In this document: positions 5,724 to 63,433 of the stretch, piece after piece
Position numbering within the stretch: the stretch's first letter is position 1
How the letters are laid out: each line of letters begins with the position of its first letter
NCBI GenBank assembly: GCA_016196825.1
Contig: JACPWY010000051.1
Location: 37,294 to 101,293, forward strand
Direction of reading: 5' to 3'
Source of the DNA: Deltaproteobacteria bacterium
Lineage (GTDB): Bacteria; Bdellovibrionota; FAC87; UBA2466
Length of the DNA: 64,000 bases
The notes under the pieces: generated by a model
Told to the model about the DNA's origin: nothing
What the model saw: only the letters and a program-made list of their open reading frames with translations
The model's database searches: none
Translations under genes and position numbers: made by a program

Positions 5724-5746
5724 CTGGTTTCCATTTCTGAAACCGG
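5724..5746. promoter_or_regulatory. Dyad site A: CTGGTTTC-CATTTCT-GAAACCGG
   Basis: Read directly; 79 nt before the GTG start of the 5826 gene; shared with sites B, C and D. Confidence 0.6.
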
Positions 5747-5825: not shown

Positions 5826-6452
5826 GTGCAAAAGTCATTGGTAAGCTGTTTTGGAATAGTTTTTCTGCTGGCGTCTCCAGCTTTCGCAGAGGCCTTCGTC
5901 GGTTACTCTTGGAGTAACCAAGTGGTTGAGGCTGGTCCGGGCCAGACAGGCGTAGTCTATTTGGGATTTGGGAGTGCGCCAGTTTATGGAACCCCGCCTC
6001 CGATAAAAGTCATTCCCAGACCACCGACCAGTCAAAATTGCGCCGCGTTCGCGGGAAAATATCAATTATACGTCGAACCAGGAAAAAGATCCTGGCTCAT
6101 GCCTGGTTCTGTAATGCAGATCAATGCAGATTGCGGACTTTTGGCGAGGGCCAAATTGAACGGCATTCCCTACGTGTTTCATATGGAAGGCTACCTGAGG
6201 CGATACCCGGGGAGTAGTTCCTGGTACTACGATCCTGGCGCTTATAGCGCATGGCCGGGTTGCACCGCGAGGGCCGAGCTGTTCATCGAACCCCACGCAG
6301 CCGAGGGGATTGCAATTCCTCCCTACTATTCGAGCATCTCCGCAGCCCTCCGCTATGAAATTCCATATTCAGATGTCTGCCAGGTGGACTACACGGTAGA
6401 CACCAATTCCGACCACCTTTACAGAGTCGCCCAGGCATTGCCAGTTCCCTGA
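5826..6452 (+). CDS. Exported protein of unknown function
   Basis: GTG start with upstream GAGGAG; signal peptide MQKSLVSCFGIVFLLASPAFAEA. Confidence 0.6.
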   Translation: MQKSLVSCFGIVFLLASPAFAEAFVGYSWSNQVVEAGPGQTGVVYLGFGSAPVYGTPPPIKVIPRPPTSQNCAAFAGKYQLYVEPGKRSWLMPGSVMQINADCGLLARAKLNGIPYVFHMEGYLRRYPGSSSWYYDPGAYSAWPGCTARAELFIEPHAAEGIAIPPYYSSISAALRYEIPYSDVCQVDYTVDTNSDHLYRVAQALPVP

Positions 6453-6467
6453 GTGACTTTTCAGAAA

Positions 6468-6490
6468 CTGGTTCCAAACAATGAAACCAG
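6468..6490. promoter_or_regulatory. Dyad site B: CTGGTTCC-AAACAAT-GAAACCAG
   Basis: Read directly; 88 nt before ATG 6579. Confidence 0.6.
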
Positions 6491-6578: not shown

Positions 6579-7524
6579 ATGAAATGCAATCGATCACCAT
6601 TAGCACCAATTGCAATGATCTTCTTCCACATCATCGCAGTCGGTGCGGCCGTGGCCGTTAATCCCGTAATTATTGAGAAGGATCGTCAGCAGGCGATGGC
6701 GGTAGCAACGGATGGGAAGAGGGTATTCTGGAGCGAATTCGAACGTTCTTCGTTTAGAGGAAGGATCATGTTATTTCCTATATTGGACTGTTCAAGGTCA
6801 ATCGAGCGGACAGCTGTTACGTTTTGATCTCCAAACCGGAAAGGCAATGGTCCTTGCGGAGTATCTGGCGAATGCCTTCGGCCTCACTCAGGACTCCGAG
6901 TATGTTTACTTTGGAACCGAGGACTACAACCACCTGGGTGGGGCAGACGCGAGCATTGTTCGAGTCGCCAAAGCTGGGGGAAAGGTCGAAACGATTGCGG
7001 CCCATCAGGTTTTCCCTTTTAGGTTAGCAATAGCTGGTGACTACGTTTATTGGACCACCTACCAGGAGTCAGGCCAACTCATGCGGGTGCGACGAGCTGG
7101 TGGACCAGTTGAACTTCGGGGCTATGGTATCCGTTACCCCGACGCCCTAGCCGTGGATTCAGACAATGTATACGTGGGCGGCCGTGGCGATCAGACAGTT
7201 TATGCCTTCGCTCACAACAATCAGCAGGAGCCGTCAGTTCTCTATAGAGGGGAGATAGCAACGGGAATCAGCGATATGGTCCATTTTGGAGAGAGTCTTT
7301 TCTGGGTCGATGACAGCAGCAGTGGTTTTGTCGCGCGCCTTCCGGTTGGGGCGCAGACGTCGGTGAATTCGCTGCCACAGACAGCAGCCCCCACGTCCCC
7401 TAGCTTGTCGTCGAGCTTTCCAAAATTGGTTTATAACCGTGATGAAAAACGGGAGGTGCGCGTACAGTCGGACGTGTTCCTTCCGTACCAAGTCGTGAGC
7501 AAGAGTCAGTTACGGTCCTATTGA
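6579..7524 (+). pseudogene. Exported beta-propeller-like (YWTD/NHL-like) protein split by a frameshift
   Basis: ORF 6579..6827 (signal peptide plus first blade, ATDGKRVFWSEF) continues in the +1 frame as ORF 6712..7524 (YFLYWTVQGQSSGQLLRFDLQTG...). The frame change lies at about 6740-6780. Confidence 0.6.
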
Positions 7525-7581: not shown

Positions 7582-8322
7582 ATGAGGCGACGGCATTTCG
7601 TCCTTGGGTGTTTCCTGGCAAGTTATATTGTGACTGCGAGAACAATTCTCGTTCTTGCGCCCCACCCGGACGACGCCGCCCTTTATGCAAGTGGAGTAAT
7701 CTACGCTGCTCATCAAAGAGGGGACGTGGTGAAGATCGCGTTTCTGACCAACGGTGATTTCTATACCGATATCGACGATCACTATGTTGAAAGAGGTTTG
7801 AAGCTTGAGGAAGAAACGGTGGCCTCCATGGCGGAGCTTGGGCCTCAGGCGGAGGACCTACTTTTTTTGGGCTATGGCGATACAACCACGGAGTTCATAT
7901 ACCATAGGAAGGACGAAACAAGCGTTGTCACCTCTCCTGCGGGCGTGAGTGCCACCTATGCGCAGTATGGGCTAAATCGGCAATCCTTTCATGAGACAGT
8001 GTTTGGCTCCCCCGCCCCTTATGTGAGAGGGAATATCCGCGCCGACTTCAGAAAGATTCTTGAGATCCATCGCCCCGATGAGATCTTTGCAACTCATTTG
8101 GTTGATGAAAACCCGGATCATGCCGGAGTGTACCTCTTCCTGTACGATGCCCTGGTTGCCTTTAGCCGTACCGAGATGGGGAAGTTTTATAACCCTGCGG
8201 TTTACTGTGGAATCGTTCATGCTCCCAATGAATCAGACTGGCCTCAAAAACCAGGATCACAATCAAAGCCCTTTGCCCGGCCGAAGTATCTGGAGCTTAC
8301 CGCTCGTCGGCCTGGTTTCTAG
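7582..8322 (+). CDS. PIG-L/LmbE-family deacetylase
   Basis: ILVLAPHPDDAALYASGVIYAA, the PHPDD signature, and later HPDH-like NPDHAGVY. Confidence 0.75.
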   Translation: MRRRHFVLGCFLASYIVTARTILVLAPHPDDAALYASGVIYAAHQRGDVVKIAFLTNGDFYTDIDDHYVERGLKLEEETVASMAELGPQAEDLLFLGYGDTTTEFIYHRKDETSVVTSPAGVSATYAQYGLNRQSFHETVFGSPAPYVRGNIRADFRKILEIHRPDEIFATHLVDENPDHAGVYLFLYDALVAFSRTEMGKFYNPAVYCGIVHAPNESDWPQKPGSQSKPFARPKYLELTARRPGF

Positions 8323-8334
8323 ATTGGAAACCAA
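8312..8334. promoter_or_regulatory. Dyad site C: CTGGTTTC-TAGATTG-GAAACCAA
   Basis: Read directly; overlaps the stop of the PIG-L ORF; 82 nt before ATG 8417. Confidence 0.55.
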
Positions 8335-8416
8335 TTACTTGGTTATGGCGCGTTAGTTGTGGACGCCATTTCCGTCGTTCTGCTATTGGTTCCGCTAACA
8401 AGTGCTGGAGCCAAAG

Positions 8417-8896
8417 ATGAGCAAATTACTTTTAGTTGCGATGGGGATGGTGATCGTCGTAAGCCAGGGGCGGGCAACCGATGAAGAGCCGGTAAAGAAA
8501 TTGGCGACGGGTAAGGACCTGGTCCAGACACTCTCAGAGATTCTTCCCGCTGAAACGGCTCGTGGAAAGCTTCGAAATGGGGATGACTGCCAGGTCACTT
8601 TTCATCACCAAGCTGTCAGCAAAGTGGCTGTGATTTCAATCGAAGGGATCCAGGATGATGATGTGCATTCGTTCATCGGAATTCACGCGAAAGATATTCT
8701 TACACTCACGGAAAGCTCGAATGAGGGCACCAGCTTTTTTCGATACGAATACTCCCCATCGAAGCGTCCGATTAATGTGACCCGAAATGCATTCTTTTTA
8801 ACACTGACCAAAAGCGATCTTGGTTTTGAAGTGACCCTCAGTAAAACGGGCAAGCGCCGTCACGCACTTACCTGTCGGGTGGGGTGGCGTGAATAA
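8417..8896 (+). CDS. Exported protein of unknown function
   Basis: Track ORF 8402..8896; ATG 8417 with GGAG RBS; MSKLLLVAMGMVIVVSQGRA signal. Confidence 0.55.
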   Translation: MSKLLLVAMGMVIVVSQGRATDEEPVKKLATGKDLVQTLSEILPAETARGKLRNGDDCQVTFHHQAVSKVAVISIEGIQDDDVHSFIGIHAKDILTLTESSNEGTSFFRYEYSPSKRPINVTRNAFFLTLTKSDLGFEVTLSKTGKRRHALTCRVGWRE

Positions 8897-9385: not shown

Positions 9386-10414
9386 TCAGTTCCATCGGCA
9401 ATCATAGTTGGAGAAGCGCAACCGTATCTCGTCAACCAGCGCCGAGGCGCCCTGTTGGCGGTAATTGTCCAGGGGGGCCATTGTCAATTCTTCAATCTGG
9501 AAAGGGAGCGCGCCACCCAGGATGTCGGCCCATTGTTCTTTCTCTAACAGAAGAGCGGCTCCACCGGGTGGTTGTACGATGGGGACTGCGCGATTTCTAA
9601 TCAAGAAGCCCGATACAAATGAAGATTTGATTTTCAGGTTTGTGAATCCCTCGGTGCGGGACACCTGAAAGAGGTGACCGCGAGAATTGGTGCAGTGAAA
9701 CGTCTCCCCGGGAATGGACCCATATTGGCATTTCAGTGACTCGGCCAGCTTATGCCTGAGCCTGCCATCCTGAGGATTGATCGAAAGAAACGCATCGGCC
9801 CGCTCTGAATTATCTTCCGCAGGGGCCAATTCAAATGTGATTGTTCCGCTAATCACGGGCTCTGTGTCGGAGTCGTTAACAATTGTCCGATATTCGCAAA
9901 CAGGCAATTTGCCTTGATAATAACTGCCCCAGGTTGTAACCCTCGGGAAGGCACTGAGGACAATGATCTCAGAGATCGAGTAATCGTCATCGCGGCGATC
10001 GTTCATCAATGACACAACTTCATGAATCACCAGTTGCCACCGGCGGTGCTCATCTCGCAAGCTCTGCCAACGAGCTCGCTGAACGATGATCTTTTGGTAC
10101 CCTGGCTGGTTCTCAGCGTCCTTTTCTTTTCCATCAATTGTAATGATCTCAGAGGTTGATTCAATCTTGGCGGTTTCGATTATTCGGCAAAATTCTTCTG
10201 CTGATATGGAGCTTGGGTGCTCTAAGAGCCATTGGCATACCCTCCTGCCTGTGTTCCTGAATTCGGCCACGAAGCCATCGCCGCCGTGAGCATCATTTCC
10301 CTGAGGGGAAACAGTGGTGGGACTGCCCTGAGAGATTGTTCCCATCGGCGCCGTGGAATTAATGCGCGTGCATCCCAACGCTAAGGTTACCAAAGTTAGG
10401 ACTGCGTACTTCAT
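9386..10414 (-). CDS. Lipoprotein with GGDG-xxAEF and HEVVSL motifs; partner of the TIGR02147 regulator
   Basis: MKYAVLTLVTLALGC lipobox; HGGDGFVAEF; VIHEVVSLMNDRRDDDYSIS; overlaps the upstream regulator by 4 nt (ATGA). Confidence 0.65.
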   Translation of the reverse strand: MKYAVLTLVTLALGCTRINSTAPMGTISQGSPTTVSPQGNDAHGGDGFVAEFRNTGRRVCQWLLEHPSSISAEEFCRIIETAKIESTSEIITIDGKEKDAENQPGYQKIIVQRARWQSLRDEHRRWQLVIHEVVSLMNDRRDDDYSISEIIVLSAFPRVTTWGSYYQGKLPVCEYRTIVNDSDTEPVISGTITFELAPAEDNSERADAFLSINPQDGRLRHKLAESLKCQYGSIPGETFHCTNSRGHLFQVSRTEGFTNLKIKSSFVSGFLIRNRAVPIVQPPGGAALLLEKEQWADILGGALPFQIEELTMAPLDNYRQQGASALVDEIRLRFSNYDCRWN

Positions 10415-11181
10415 GAGTTCTCCTTCGAAGAGGCAAAGAGTTGAACGGTCAGATTGAAAACCTGGCGTGGCGTACCCAGCTGCTCGAGCTCACTTGTTAG
10501 TTCTCTGCGAAATGTTTGGATGCGGGCCTTGGCGTAGGGCAAGAGAGCGGGGTCCATCGCAAAGGTCGTGGAGGTGTGGTCACGTTTTTCGAGCGGTTCA
10601 TTTTCCAGAGATTCAACTGCCTTTTGGATCAGCTGGAGCTGAAACCTGCGTGTGGCCGTTGTAGAGTGCCGGGGATCCAATCGAAATGATTCTTTCGTCT
10701 GTCGCCAGCGGCCATCTTTATTTTGCGCGATAATTCCAAGCCGGATCAAGCGGTCGATCGCAAGCCCCGCTTCGAGTGGAGAGAGATTCAATTGCCGAGC
10801 AATCCACTGCGCCTCTAAACGGGCGTTGGGCAATTCCAGGAGGCTGAGGATCGCAAAATGGTACCACTCAGCGATGACCGCGAAGGTGTCCAGGTCCATC
10901 GGGGAGGGCTCACTGACAAATGCCGTCGTCCCATTTGAAGAAAACAAAGCCTGGGCTTCCGTCGGGCTCAGAGCGAGTTGAGCGGCAACGCTGATCGCAG
11001 CCTTTTTTGAGAGGGGGCGCTTGCCGGACAGCACAAGAGAAAGGACCGTGTGACTCATTCCTAGCGATCGGGCGAAGGCTCGTTGGCTATACCGTGGATT
11101 TTTTTCGCTACGGCGCTCGAGTTCCTCCTTCAAAAGCTGCCGTGGCTCGAGGCGTGAGGTCTGTGACTTAACTGGCTCCAT
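10411..11181 (-). CDS. TIGR02147/DUF4423-family regulator
   Basis: N-terminal HTH RYSQRAFARSLGMSHTVLSLVLSGKRPLS, plus central LSPLEAGLAIDRLIRLGIIAQNKDGRW. Confidence 0.75.
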   Translation of the reverse strand: MEPVKSQTSRLEPRQLLKEELERRSEKNPRYSQRAFARSLGMSHTVLSLVLSGKRPLSKKAAISVAAQLALSPTEAQALFSSNGTTAFVSEPSPMDLDTFAVIAEWYHFAILSLLELPNARLEAQWIARQLNLSPLEAGLAIDRLIRLGIIAQNKDGRWRQTKESFRLDPRHSTTATRRFQLQLIQKAVESLENEPLEKRDHTSTTFAMDPALLPYAKARIQTFRRELTSELEQLGTPRQVFNLTVQLFASSKENS

Positions 11182-11229
11182 CGAGGCAAGGGGAATAACA
11201 TATTGGAATCTTGAGTCTCAACACCAAAA

Positions 11230-11247
11230 TGAAACCAGTTGGTTTCA
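11230..11247. promoter_or_regulatory. Perfect dyad TGAAACCA-GT-TGGTTTCA upstream of the TIGR02147 gene
   Basis: Read directly; 48 nt upstream of the 11181 start; same GGTTTC/GAAACC half-sites as sites A-D but with inverted arrangement. Confidence 0.6.
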
Positions 11248-11339
11248 AAGCTAATCACTGGCCCAATAACTTATAAATTCAATTACTTCTGCCAGCATTA
11301 AGGCGAGGGTTTAATGCAATTGTTTCAGTCTTGGGAATA

Positions 11340-12239
11340 TCAAGGGTTGTTGAATTGGGGAGGGACGGTGGTCTGACCATATTCATTGTCTCCCCAGCAT
11401 GTCACCGTGCCAGCATCTAGAGCACAGGTGTGTTGTCCACCCGCAGACACCTGGCGAGGGTTTCCAAAAATGGGAACACTGTTCCCACCATTGCCATCAA
11501 ATCCCCAACACTCTAGCCCATCAGCACCTAGCGCGCAGACATGCCCACCACCCACGGAAATTGTGTTTGGTTCTCGGACAGAGGGAACATTGGTCTGGCC
11601 CCACCCATTATATCCCCAACATTTCACGCCATCGGCATCCAGCGCACAGGCGGTTAAACTATTTGTAGATATTTGGCGTGGGTTTCGAAGAGGGGGAACA
11701 TTACTCTGGCCCCATTCATTATATCCCCAACACTTAACTCCATCGGCATCCAACGCACAGGTGTGAAGGAAACCTGCTGAAATTTGGAGTGGTTTTCTAA
11801 GGGAAGGAACCACGGTTTCTCCTCTTGGATTATTTCCCCAGCACTTAACTCCATCGGCGTCCAACGCGCAGGTATGAAGGAAACCTGCTGAGATTTGGCG
11901 TGGTTTTCTTAAGGGAGGGACGCTAGTTTGACCAAATTCATTGTCTCCCCAACACCTTGCTCCATCGGCATCCAGCGCACAGACATGCTTACCGCCGGCG
12001 GATATTTGGCGTGGTCTTCGAAGGCGGGGAACGTTGATTTGGCTAAACTGATTATCTCCCCAGCACTTTACTCTTCCTTTTTTCAGTCCACAGGAAAAAT
12101 AATTCCCGCTTGAGAGCATTACCTGTGCGGAAGCTACGTCTTCGACCAACTGAGTATGATGGTCGCCACCGAAACAGGATTTTGGATGAGTAACAAGTTC
12201 CCCAAGCAAAAGTAATAAGATTAATCCAAAATGTCTCAT
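11340..12239 (-). CDS. Exported RCC1-like repeat protein
   Basis: Tandem 37-aa repeats CWGDNxxGQxxVPxLRxPRQISAGxxHxCALDADGVK. Confidence 0.75.
   Translation of the reverse strand: MRHFGLILLLLLGELVTHPKSCFGGDHHTQLVEDVASAQVMLSSGNYFSCGLKKGRVKCWGDNQFSQINVPRLRRPRQISAGGKHVCALDADGARCWGDNEFGQTSVPPLRKPRQISAGFLHTCALDADGVKCWGNNPRGETVVPSLRKPLQISAGFLHTCALDADGVKCWGYNEWGQSNVPPLRNPRQISTNSLTACALDADGVKCWGYNGWGQTNVPSVREPNTISVGGGHVCALGADGLECWGFDGNGGNSVPIFGNPRQVSAGGQHTCALDAGTVTCWGDNEYGQTTVPPQFNNP
11345..12090. repeat. 111-bp tandem repeats inside the RCC1-like gene
   Basis: Neighbouring units keep long identical stretches, e.g. cacttaactccatcggc[ag]tccaacgc[ag]caggt[ag]tgaaggaaacctgctga. Confidence 0.6.
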
Positions 12240-12333: not shown

Positions 12334-12356
12334 GTGGTTTCACATTTTGAAACCAC
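12334..12356. promoter_or_regulatory. Dyad site D: GTGGTTTC-ACATTTT-GAAACCAC
   Basis: Read directly; extends outward to TGTGGTTTC/GAAACCACA; 94 nt upstream of the 12239 start; TATACT lies 21 nt further downstream on the minus strand. Confidence 0.65.
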
Positions 12357-16472: not shown

Positions 16473-16641
16473 TTTGCTCCAAGAGCCGCTCTCCGCGCGG
16501 ATTACATTTTTCCGCAAGAAACCATATTGACAAGAATTTGTCAGGATTTTATCAATACCGGGTTGCGCATTAAATTCAGCTGTTTAGGATTTGGTTCCAT
16601 AAAGGTTGTGAGCAGGCTCGGATAGTTGGGTAGTGGAAGGA

Positions 16642-16664
16642 GTTATCCACAGAATGTGGATAAC
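16642..16664. promoter_or_regulatory. Inverted pair of DnaA-box consensus sequences (TTATCCACA / TGTGGATAA)
   Basis: GTTATCCACA-GAA-TGTGGATAAC, a perfect 10-bp inverted repeat; each arm contains the consensus DnaA box. Confidence 0.6.
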
Positions 16665-16789
16665 TAGTTCGGTAGCAGACTCGCCGTTCTCTCCCTCTCA
16701 AGTACTGAAATCGCACCAATATCGGGCAACCCCTTAGACTTACACGTATCTTGTTTGTTGCGCCTAGACATGATGCTATGAGTCACTAG

Positions 16790-17635
16790 ATGACTGGGCC
16801 TACCAAAGTTTTCCACACTGTCAGTCCGCTGCTGTTCAAAAGAGTCCATATTGTCCTCGTTCGCCCCGAGCAGTCGCAAAATGTGGGAGCGGTCGCCCGT
16901 GCTATGGCCAACATGGGTATTTTGACCCCATTAAAGATTGTTTCCGCCCCTGAGATCCTCTCTCCGGAAGCGTTTCGATTGGCGCGCCATGCCAGCGCTG
17001 TGCTTGAAAAAGCTCAGATCATCCCCATTCTAAAGAATGCCTTCGATTTTCCGGAGGGAGTTGAGGTCTGCAAGATGGCTATAACAGCCCGAGTGGGTTC
17101 ACCCGATCGGCCGCACCCTGTTTGGTTGCCTGAAGCGATGCCGAATGTGGTTGCCAAGATGAATGGGCGAGGTGATTGGCAGCTGGCAATGGTCTTTGGG
17201 CCGGAGAGTGACGGTCTGTCTAATGATGAGGTGGCCGCCTGTGATGCGATCATGCGCATCCCTTCCGATACCGAATATCGTTCGCTCAACCTTGCCCAGG
17301 CCGTCATGGTCTGTTGTTACGAGTTTCGGCGCGCTAATCTTATGGCTGCCAATGAGGGCGTTGCCCTCGCTACCCCCCAGGGGCAGAAGGATCGTCTGAT
17401 TCAACACATCTTGCAGGTGGCCGAGGCCGTGGGATTTGTCCTCCCGGGCGACCCTTATAAGATGAAGGGGCGACTCACCGAGATCCTATCGGGGTTGCCC
17501 AACCATTTGAAAGATATTAAGACGTTGCATGGCCTGCTGGATCAGGTCGCACGTTCCCTTAAGAAGCAGGCCCCCGATTTCAAGGGGCGTTACCGTAATC
17601 GATTAGAACGCGAGGCAGACAGTGAAAGAGTCTAA
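16790..17635 (+). CDS. trmJ: TrmH-family RNA methyltransferase, TrmJ-like
   Basis: HIVLVRPEQSQNVGAVARAMANMG; MVFGPESDGLSNDEVAACD; IPSDTEYRSLNLAQAVMVCCYE. Confidence 0.85.
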   Translation: MTGPTKVFHTVSPLLFKRVHIVLVRPEQSQNVGAVARAMANMGILTPLKIVSAPEILSPEAFRLARHASAVLEKAQIIPILKNAFDFPEGVEVCKMAITARVGSPDRPHPVWLPEAMPNVVAKMNGRGDWQLAMVFGPESDGLSNDEVAACDAIMRIPSDTEYRSLNLAQAVMVCCYEFRRANLMAANEGVALATPQGQKDRLIQHILQVAEAVGFVLPGDPYKMKGRLTEILSGLPNHLKDIKTLHGLLDQVARSLKKQAPDFKGRYRNRLEREADSERV

Positions 17636-21310: not shown

Positions 21311-21349
21311 TCTTCCCGTCCTGTCGTTGGGGGGCGGGCAAATAAGCAA

Positions 21350-21409
21350 CGGCAATCACCGCACACAGTGTGCAGTTTGTCTTGCCAAACTTGTGCGTTT
21401 TGATTGCCG
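21350..21409. repeat. Inverted-repeat region CGGCAATCA...TGATTGCCG containing the dyad GCACAC-A-GTGTGC
   Basis: Read directly; lies between the 21310 stop and the TIGR02147 remnant. Confidence 0.5.
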
Positions 21410-21440
21410 CCTCGGCAAGGCTACTGTTAGGTTTTTTGTT

Positions 21441-21659
21441 GTGGAGGCGTTCACAATTTATCAGTTCGATAATTTCCGAAATTATCTGCTCGTGACAGGT
21501 CAGCGGTGCTTTTCCCGTCGCAATCGTCGGATCTCGCTGGATGAATGGAGTTGCAAGCTCGGCTACCGTTCTCCGCGCAGTGTGGCCATGGTTCTGAAGG
21601 GGCAACGTTTTCCGAGCTCGGAAATGCGGACATTCTCGCAACCGAGCATACGTGGATAG
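21441..21659 (+). pseudogene. 5' remnant of a TIGR02147-family regulator
   Basis: VEAFTIYQFDNFRNYLLVTGQRCFSRRNRRISLDEWSCKLGYRSPRSVAMVLKGQRFPSSEM matches only the N-terminal HTH region of the family, then the frame ends. Confidence 0.6.
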
Positions 21660-51420: not shown

Positions 51421-52794
51421 ATGATGAATTCGGTGCGACAGAGTGTGCTTTTTCTATTGTTGATCTCAATCTCCGGTGTGGCCGACTCTTGTGACGACTT
51501 CAACAAGCTTTCCGGCCCAGAGAAGGTAACTTACATCCAACAAAGACAGGTAGATTCGGTTTTAACAAGGTGGTCCATGGTCCATGGGGGTGGAGGCGAT
51601 TACGATTGGTCTGGAATCGCTATCGCAAGCGGAGGCGGTGCGCGTGGGTCTGAGCACCTGAAATTTCGCTATGTCGAGGATTCATTGGGCAGTTGGGTTC
51701 TGGGTTTTTTTCGCAGAGCGCACGCCGATGTTCAGGCACTTAAAGCTACGGCAAAGTTTTTGTCACCGGACATCAGCGAGACAAAGGGTTTTCGAAGTCT
51801 CAAGCCAACCTTTACTAGAAATTGTGAGTTCTTAGAGAAGCCGGAGGTCAAAAAGGTGCACGCCCTCGGTGCTCTTTCTTGGGCTCGGATGGTTCTGTAC
51901 CCAAAACTCCGAGTTTTAGGGAAAGAAGATGTCGTTGTCGGCGAGATTGCGAATCCGTGGACAGGACTCCTGAATCCAGAAAAGAGTCCGATCACTCCGC
52001 TCTTTCTTCGATTTTCGATCGCCAACCCGATTGCAGACACGGTTTCGATCCCGACGCCGAAGGGGCGCAAGTCACTCGCGCTCGAGTTTATTCCTGGCGT
52101 CGGGATGAAGTTTATTATCCATCGACGTCGGAGCGTCGATCTCGTGGCGATGGATTCCTTGGCCGGTCAGGGCAAGAACCAGAACTTTTTTGCATACGAG
52201 TTTTCCCCTGATTTCTCGGCGCGCGCCCCAGAGGCGTATAACACTGCCGCCGGACGGGCGAAGGAAGAGATTCTAAAACGGTACAAGATGAATCCTACCA
52301 ATCACCATGTGATGGGCCTTGTGGGAAAACGTTTTGCCGAGGTGATCCCGCTCATCACGAAATTGAAAGGCCCAATCGACCCCCACTCCAATGTGGGACC
52401 GCACCCCTTCATCATGTCCATTGCCGAACTGGCAGCGGTAGATGTGGGCGGGGATGGGGTGCCGGTGGAGGATCAACGACGCCCCTGGCGCTTGGTCTTC
52501 AAACCGAAGGTGAAGACTCATAACACGGATGACCGAGCTAAACTGGTGGATTCCACCCCTTATACGCCGGGCAAACATCACACGGACTTCCGCTACAAGC
52601 TCGCCCATTTCGTACCTGGCGACACAGTTTTCGAGGTGATTGGGGAGACGAAAGCCGGGCAGCGGTACGCGCTGGGAGAAATTGTGCTTGAGACCCCCGT
52701 GGCAATGAGCGATTTCGCCGATCAACTGGTTTTTGTCCAACACCAGTTGGAGATGGGGCGTATCTCTGGGCAGACGATCGTCGATCCTCGGTAG
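51421..52794 (+). CDS. Exported protein of unknown function
   Basis: MMNSVRQSVLFLLLISISGVADSC signal; GGAGG RBS. Confidence 0.55.
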   Translation: MMNSVRQSVLFLLLISISGVADSCDDFNKLSGPEKVTYIQQRQVDSVLTRWSMVHGGGGDYDWSGIAIASGGGARGSEHLKFRYVEDSLGSWVLGFFRRAHADVQALKATAKFLSPDISETKGFRSLKPTFTRNCEFLEKPEVKKVHALGALSWARMVLYPKLRVLGKEDVVVGEIANPWTGLLNPEKSPITPLFLRFSIANPIADTVSIPTPKGRKSLALEFIPGVGMKFIIHRRRSVDLVAMDSLAGQGKNQNFFAYEFSPDFSARAPEAYNTAAGRAKEEILKRYKMNPTNHHVMGLVGKRFAEVIPLITKLKGPIDPHSNVGPHPFIMSIAELAAVDVGGDGVPVEDQRRPWRLVFKPKVKTHNTDDRAKLVDSTPYTPGKHHTDFRYKLAHFVPGDTVFEVIGETKAGQRYALGEIVLETPVAMSDFADQLVFVQHQLEMGRISGQTIVDPR

Positions 52795-52890: not shown

Positions 52891-53688
52891 ATGAGCCCAG
52901 CGGAAAAAAAACGCTCATATTTTCGGCAGTCTGAGACCCAGGAGTTCATTCGGGGGTTTCTCCTCAACGAGCTTCTCAAGAGGTGTAAGACCAACCCTAG
53001 ATACTCCTTGCGATCCTTCGCGAAGCGAATCGGTATGAGCCCGGGAATGCTTAGCCAAGTGCTCAAATCGAAGAGAAACCTCTCAGAAAAGCTCGCTCAA
53101 AGGGTGAGTAGATCCTTGGACTTCAAGCTGCCCCTTGGGGCGGCAGAATCGCTTCAGTTTAATCGACTTTTGGGTGACCATTTTAGGGTCATCACCGACT
53201 GGTACAACTTCGCCATCCTTGAACTCCTGAGCATCAAGGGCACGGATGCCGATCCGAAAGCTATCGCCAAGACTCTGCACATTTCTCCCGCTGAGGCCCA
53301 GACTGCGATAGCCTGTTTGGCGCGCTTGGGTCTGATTGAGCAGACGAAAGAGGGGAGTTGGCACAATGTCTCCGGTCACAACACAGTACTGGACGACGAG
53401 AGTGTTGCTGACGCACGTAGGCTGCAACAGATCCAGATTCTAAAGAAAGCACTGGAGGCTTTGGAAAATGTTCCTATCGCCCATCGGGACCAATCATCGA
53501 TGATCCTAGCCGTCGATAGAAAGCTGCTTCCGGAGGCTCGGCGGCGCCTCACGAAAATGCGACGGGAGCTGACCCAGTTTCTCCAGAGTCAGGGAGAAAC
53601 GAACGATGTCTATTGCCTGTCTTTCTCCTATTTTCCACTCACGACTCTTTTCGAGGCGGAGGAGCCCAATGCTAGAAAACACCATTAG
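52891..53688 (+). CDS. TIGR02147/DUF4423-family regulator
   Basis: NPRYSLRSFAKRIGMSPGMLSQVLKSKRNLSEKLAQRV; LHISPAEAQTAIACLARLGLIEQTKEGSW; same layout as the 10411..11181 protein. Confidence 0.75.
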   Translation: MSPAEKKRSYFRQSETQEFIRGFLLNELLKRCKTNPRYSLRSFAKRIGMSPGMLSQVLKSKRNLSEKLAQRVSRSLDFKLPLGAAESLQFNRLLGDHFRVITDWYNFAILELLSIKGTDADPKAIAKTLHISPAEAQTAIACLARLGLIEQTKEGSWHNVSGHNTVLDDESVADARRLQQIQILKKALEALENVPIAHRDQSSMILAVDRKLLPEARRRLTKMRRELTQFLQSQGETNDVYCLSFSYFPLTTLFEAEEPNARKHH

Positions 53689-63291: not shown

Positions 63292-63363
63292 GCCCCTGTA
63301 GTTAAATGGATATAACGAGGGATTCCTAATCCCTAATTACAGGTTCGATTCCTGTCGGGGGCA
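63292..63363 (+). tRNA. tRNA-Arg (anticodon CCT)
   Basis: Acceptor GCCCCTG/CGGGGGC, D-arm GTTA..TAAC, anticodon arm AGGGA-TTCCTAA-TCCCT (CCT at 63325-63327), T-arm ACAGG-TTCGATT-CCTGT. Confidence 0.92.
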
Positions 63364-63410: not shown

Positions 63411-63433
63411 ACCGCTAATTAAAAATTAGCGGT
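63411..63433. repeat. Inverted repeat ACCGCTAATT-AAA-AATTAGCGGT between tRNA-Arg and the integrase-like ORF
   Basis: Perfect 10-bp arms; preceded at 63370 by TTGGTA-CACA-TACCAA. Confidence 0.6.

Follow-up and report, generated by a model that had tools for sequence, protein, structure and literature searches.

The window, the 64-kb stretch of DNA that was analyzed, carries on its minus strand a gene (10411–11181) for a 256-residue regulator with a helix-turn-helix and a DUF4423 domain (TIGR02147). The protein exceeds the cut-offs of the TIGR02147 (Fsuc_second; 108.7 bits, cut-off 50) and DUF4423 (PF14394; 130.4 bits, cut-off 30) models and lies below the gathering cut-off of HTH_3 (21.8 versus 23 bits), with the helices of a helix-turn-helix nonetheless present in the structure model. 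Besides its N-terminal helix-turn-helix, it has a winged-helix-turn-helix-like segment and two long helices. A helix spanning residues 44–51 follows that of residues 33–40 in the AlphaFold2 model (mean pLDDT 84.5), as expected for a recognition helix, and the residues concerned are S43-H44-T45-V46-L47-S48-L49. Searches of the PDB by sequence and by fold returned nothing significant and no close solved structure. The partner gene on the same strand (9386–10414) encodes a 342-residue exported protein or lipoprotein with a GNDAHGGDGFVAEF motif, and its start overlaps the stop of the regulator gene by 4 nt (10411–10414). Downstream of the related regulators L059 and L087, and overlapping the end of each, there are also exported proteins whose glycine-rich motif is GG..GGD-like. 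Both of these are His44-type regulators surrounded by genes for exported proteins and with a TGGTTAC convergent site nearby.

TIGR02147 proteins form a paralogous family in the genome to which the window belongs (23 matched stretches in more than 15 genes), and matches above the cut-off occur in 173 of 192 genomes of the phylum. Elsewhere in the window, a short reading frame at 21327–21659 shows a weak TIGR02147 match to the N-terminal region only (C4:58746) and is perhaps the remnant of a regulator gene. A second paralogue in the window (53161–53643) has no perfect family-type operator, and an 8-bp dyad with N11 spacing lies at 52723–52749, ~400 nt upstream of the matched domain. A regulator of the Bdellovibrionota type that is 46% identical to the window protein was found on a contig labeled as a Rhodoglobus MAG (L086), which probably is misbinned.

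A perfect dyad, TGAAACCAGTTGGTTTCA, termed here site E, is located at 11230–11247, with 48 nt between it and the regulator ATG (11181). The first-pass annotation had described this dyad correctly and had assigned it to 11182–11260; that interval contains the dyad and spans the whole intergenic stretch, whereas the dyad itself occupies only 11230–11247. The site has the form TGAAACCA-GT-TGGTTTCA on the forward strand and TGAAACCA-AC-TGGTTTCA on the minus strand, which is the coding strand for the regulator. As a bare palindrome site E proves nothing because perfect inverted pairs whose arms reach at least 8 occur 21 times in the window. On sequence comparison, its significance is in the match of its half-sites to those of four neighboring sites, A–D, in its uniqueness in the genome and in its conservation before an orthologous regulator gene. 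With three or fewer mismatches allowed, 0.02 matches to TGAAACCAGTTGGTTTCA are expected. The dyad is the sole perfect copy in the 3.5-Mb genome, in which perfect 8+8 copies occur once per arrangement.

Orthologues of the regulator retain the dyad. The first-pass annotation had named absence of the dyad before orthologous regulators as evidence against its proposal, and the dyad instead was found at the same distance in one orthologue and as a version with three half-sites in another. The closer orthologue, from another genus of the same family (G002, a Bdellovibrionaceae MAG according to a search of named genomes), is 76% identical to the window regulator, and its partner protein is 43% identical to that encoded in the window. 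Upstream of the G002 gene lies TGAAACCA-CA-TGGTTTCA, 47 nt before the ATG, with the candidate −35 element TTGAGC 8 nt past the last half-site. The second orthologue (G001, a groundwater 'Deltaproteobacteria' MAG by the same search) is 52% identical and is preceded by TGGTTTCA-AAAT-TGAAACCA-CAT-TGTTTTCA, a full trio of half-sites that is followed by TTGCAT-N17-TAATAA.

The arrangement in G001 corresponds to an operator design found for TIGR02147 regulators throughout the phylum: half-site 1 faces half-site 2 across N5–8, half-site 2 and the outward-facing half-site 3 are separated by N3, and a −35-like hexamer follows 7 nt later. Perfect TG-anchored 7-bp inverted pairs were present in 30 of 90 sequences upstream of TIGR02147 genes compared to 0.75 in dinucleotide shuffles, with about two thirds of these 90 sequences lacking a perfect dyad. 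The same test applied to other genes gave 9 of 191, and four of these nine, with a TIGR02147 gene close by, resemble targets. Spacing of the divergent pair was N3 in nearly all cases, and that of the convergent pair was N5–8. Among 36 regulators with a convergent pair, a third half-site located exactly N3 further on matched at a mean of 5.1 of 7 positions, whereas other gaps gave about 2.5 at most. A −35-like hexamer lies 17 nt past the convergent pair. For 25 divergent sites, the hexamer exactly 7 nt past the dyad matched −35 at a mean of 2.80 of 6 positions, the maximum in 1000 shuffles being 2.44, and a weaker −10 signal was evident 30 nt past the dyad (p 0.057). An in-frame start codon is positioned 41–48 nt past the dyad in 20 of the 30 sites listed, nine of them at 43 nt, with the start chosen by the analyst where several in-frame starts exist. 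As the start codon typically is 43 nt past half-site 3, this operator-to-start geometry implies that many TIGR02147 mRNAs are leaderless or nearly so. The Bdellovibrio bacteriovorus strain kdesi regulator (L090, ~7884–8010) has several TGTGTCA-type half-sites followed by a −35-like TGGATC and a −10-like TAAACC, the latter 8 nt ahead of an ATG, and would be a convenient experimental model. The L090 orthologue is encoded at about 173508–174296 of NZ_CP102930.1.

Read on the minus strand, site E comprises half-sites 2 (GAAACCA, 11240–11246) and 3 (TGGTTTC, 11231–11237) of the family operator, that is, divergent half-sites before a regulator gene, with a spacer of N2 instead of the usual N3. Half-site 1 is absent upstream of site E and of the G002 site, and is present in G001. 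A candidate −35 element, TTGAGA (11216–11221, minus strand), is 9 nt past half-site 3 compared to the family norm of 7 nt, and the candidate −10 element TGTTATTC (11193–11200, minus strand), which was located by sequence and family geometry, is weak with at best 4 of 6 matches. The regulator ATG is 49 nt past the 7-mer arm of site E, the family distance typically being ~43 nt.

Sites A–D contain the same half-sites, as the first-pass annotation had noted, with a spacing of seven bases from GGTTTC to GAAACC in each. Site A (TGGTTTC-N7-GAAACCG, 5725–5745) and site B (TGGTTCC-N7-GAAACCA, 6469–6489) are located 80 and 89 nt before signal-peptide reading frames that begin at 5826 and 6579, respectively. 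Site C (8313–8333) and site D (12335–12355) are perfect copies of TGGTTTC-N7-GAAACCA, and the arms of site D reach 11 bp if extended. Site C is 68 nt before a plus-strand gene for an exported protein with a homologue in G002 (8402–8896), and site D is 95 nt before a minus-strand gene for an exported protein with RCC1 repeats (11340–12239); both proteins are predicted regulon members. A frameshift seems to affect the gene behind site B, the signal-peptide frame 6579–6827 overlapping a weakly SinM-like frame (6712–7524) in another phase. That sites A–D show the opposite arrangement to site E was borne out, and the cause, which had been missed, is that three alternating half-sites contain both arrangements: site E retains half-sites 2 and 3, sites A–D retain 1 and 2, and the G001 orthologue has the complete set.

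The extent of the regulon was assessed by searching for TGGTTTC-N7-GAAACCA in the window's own genome (G000), G001 and G002 and reading the neighborhoods of the matches. Sites with at most one mismatch numbered six in G000 and six in G002. Ten of the 12 lie 65–102 nt before reading frames with a signal-peptide-like N-terminus, a property that about 25% of other genes display in a more stringent form of this crude test, and the other two are within long reading frames. Four of the ten are on contigs other than that of the regulator. The genes behind the sites mostly are unrelated to one another, and therefore the sites were not carried by gene duplication. Exact convergent sites numbered two in G000, two in G002 and one in the other 57 of the 59 relatives searched. 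With N6 spacing, there were no matches with at most one mismatch in G000 and few elsewhere. Placement of −35 and −10 elements common to targets A–D and their relatives gave no clear signal among ten sites. A reading of TGAAAC as an ECF-sigma −35 element was rejected, there being no consistent −10 element at 16–17 nt in the target upstream regions. The small regulon in two genomes supports the proposal in the first-pass annotation that the regulator may control neighboring exported proteins.

The bases of the half-sites covary with residues of the recognition helix across TIGR02147 regulators, which ties the regulators to the dyads. Four helix/half-site rules and a detection rule were fixed before 58 further regulators were read, of which 24 had a site. 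Because matches to the TIGR02147 model in the phylum favored another subfamily, the window protein itself was used to select the test set. Among the new regulators, an acidic residue 43 occurred with G at base 4 (8 with both features, 2 and 2 with one or the other, 12 with neither; p=0.002), as did His44 with G at base 3 (4, 1, 1 and 18, respectively; p=0.002). The two rules for residue 49 (P3 and P4) gave p values of 0.44 and 0.25, with too few cases under the fixed detection rule. A trio-aware reading that was chosen afterwards and applied to 51 distinct pooled sites yielded p values of 5e-7, 3e-6, 4e-6 and 0.005 for the four rules, or 2e-5 to 0.012 when identical combinations were collapsed. 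All of these values ignore shared ancestry, and the test set includes a few duplicates or near-duplicates of training genes. The window protein, with S43 and H44 and the half-site TGGT, fits both of the confirmed rules. The code has several exceptions (L311, L293, L038 and L032), and the His44-type regulators L011, L015 and L004 of the same genome have no perfect upstream site. Binding of the half-sites by the regulator, as originally suggested, is thus supported comparatively by the family-wide operator and by the covariation.

Site E very probably serves the TIGR02147/DUF4423 regulator as its autoregulatory operator, with the convergent sites marking a regulon of exported proteins. The N-terminal helix-turn-helix would read the half-site TGGTTTC, and the regulator would bind as a dimer, occupying at its own promoter two outward-facing half-sites that immediately precede the −35 element, and at the promoters for exported proteins two inward-facing half-sites 7 nt apart. 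It would thereby activate its own leaderless or nearly leaderless regulator-lipoprotein mRNA in a positive autoregulatory circuit. Physical binding, which we infer, is well supported by sequence comparison, namely by the presence and conservation of the sites, their common design, the fixed distances to the −35 element and start codon, and the helix covariation. The N2 spacer of site E, the missing half-site 1, the candidate −35 element 9 nt away and the weak −10 element count against this explanation. The sign of control is judged from the position of the site: activation seems the likelier because the site holds a constant position immediately before the −35 element (about −43 to −59). Small helix-turn-helix regulators frequently autorepress, and the same regulator bound to the same operator upstream of or over the −35 element could instead block RNA polymerase, for which the closeness of site E to a weak promoter and the departure of the G000 and G002 variants from the family spacing can be cited. 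Yet in 25 promoters the gap between half-site 3 and the −35 element is a constant 7 nt, a geometry that suits contact with polymerase, whereas a blocking repressor requires no fixed distance and usually overlaps the −35, −10 or +1 positions. Autorepression has an appreciable but smaller probability.

Departures from an autoregulatory operator altogether fare worse. It is improbable that the half-sites are read by a paralogue or an unrelated factor with the window regulator as just one target: the genome does offer more than 15 TIGR02147 paralogues, but the half-site bases track the helix of the adjacent regulator family-wide and the exact convergent sites are concentrated in genomes with a close orthologue. 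The dyad might also form an RNA hairpin in a 5′ leader, acting as an attenuator or weak terminator, since a TTTT follows it on the minus strand and it scores as terminator-like. However, terminator-like matches in the region do not exceed those in shuffles, deviations in A–D and relatives mostly break the stem without compensation, and the dyad would not be transcribed because the family geometry sets the transcription start ~42 nt downstream, so that this idea merits very little credence. A chance palindrome, for which the 21 perfect dyads in the window would speak, is next to negligible, being already contradicted by the orthologue test: position and sequence are conserved in another genus, the half-site is common to A–D and the pattern is that of the family.

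Beyond autoregulation of the window regulator by way of site E, it can be proposed tentatively, and with considerable doubt, that TIGR02147 proteins are phylum-wide dedicated switches for exported proteins, that the middle half-site shared in three-half-site autoregulation lets only one of the two pairs, upstream or promoter-proximal, be occupied at a time, and that every regulator recognizes a half-site of its own by a simple amino-acid/base code at residues 43, 44 and 49.

In agreement with the first-pass annotation, no DNA target or regulon of TIGR02147/DUF4423 proteins was found in the open-access text searched, where no paper mentioned TIGR02147 and one listed DUF4423 in a Bdellovibrio proteome table. 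DdiA of Myxococcus (PMC12288472), considered as a possible characterized relative, was set aside: in the passages found it is an XRE-type helix-turn-helix protein with two C-terminal helices, and the term 'DUF' occurs nowhere in the text. The window regulator resembles XRE/HTH_3 proteins of the lambda/434 repressor type in that a helix-turn-helix recognition helix would read inverted half-sites and in that the divergent half-sites are 10 bp apart center to center, about one helical turn. It differs in its sub-cut-off HTH_3 score, its second, winged-helix-turn-helix-like domain and its three alternating half-sites. LysR-type activators similarly combine a promoter-distal recognition pair with a promoter-proximal site beside the −35 element, autoregulation and neighboring targets, but the protein is unrelated by all searches and the order and spacing of sites differ. 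Class I/II activators such as CRP likewise bind operators whose distance to the −35 element downstream is fixed, whereas their fold and half-site differ and activation by the window regulator is proposed from site position. The regulator is a member of a named family, for which the operator design and the code linking helix to half-site seem to be new. Genomes of Bdellovibrionota, Bdellovibrio among them, encode TIGR02147/DUF4423 regulators in large numbers, and the operator design and code should allow binding sites and regulons to be predicted from sequence and tested in B. bacteriovorus. The patterns suggest that, in these lineages known for predation, exported proteins are governed by many small, dedicated controllers.

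Other features of the window include a tRNA gene (63292–63363) with a 23-bp dyad 47 nt past it (63411–63433) that probably is a terminator. An Rfam search of the window matched only a tRNA. A further element at 16641–16665, AGTTATCCACAgaaTGTGGATAACT, is a perfect inverted pair of the DnaA-box-like TTATCCACA and lies between a mutS-like reading frame and a reading frame at 16790.
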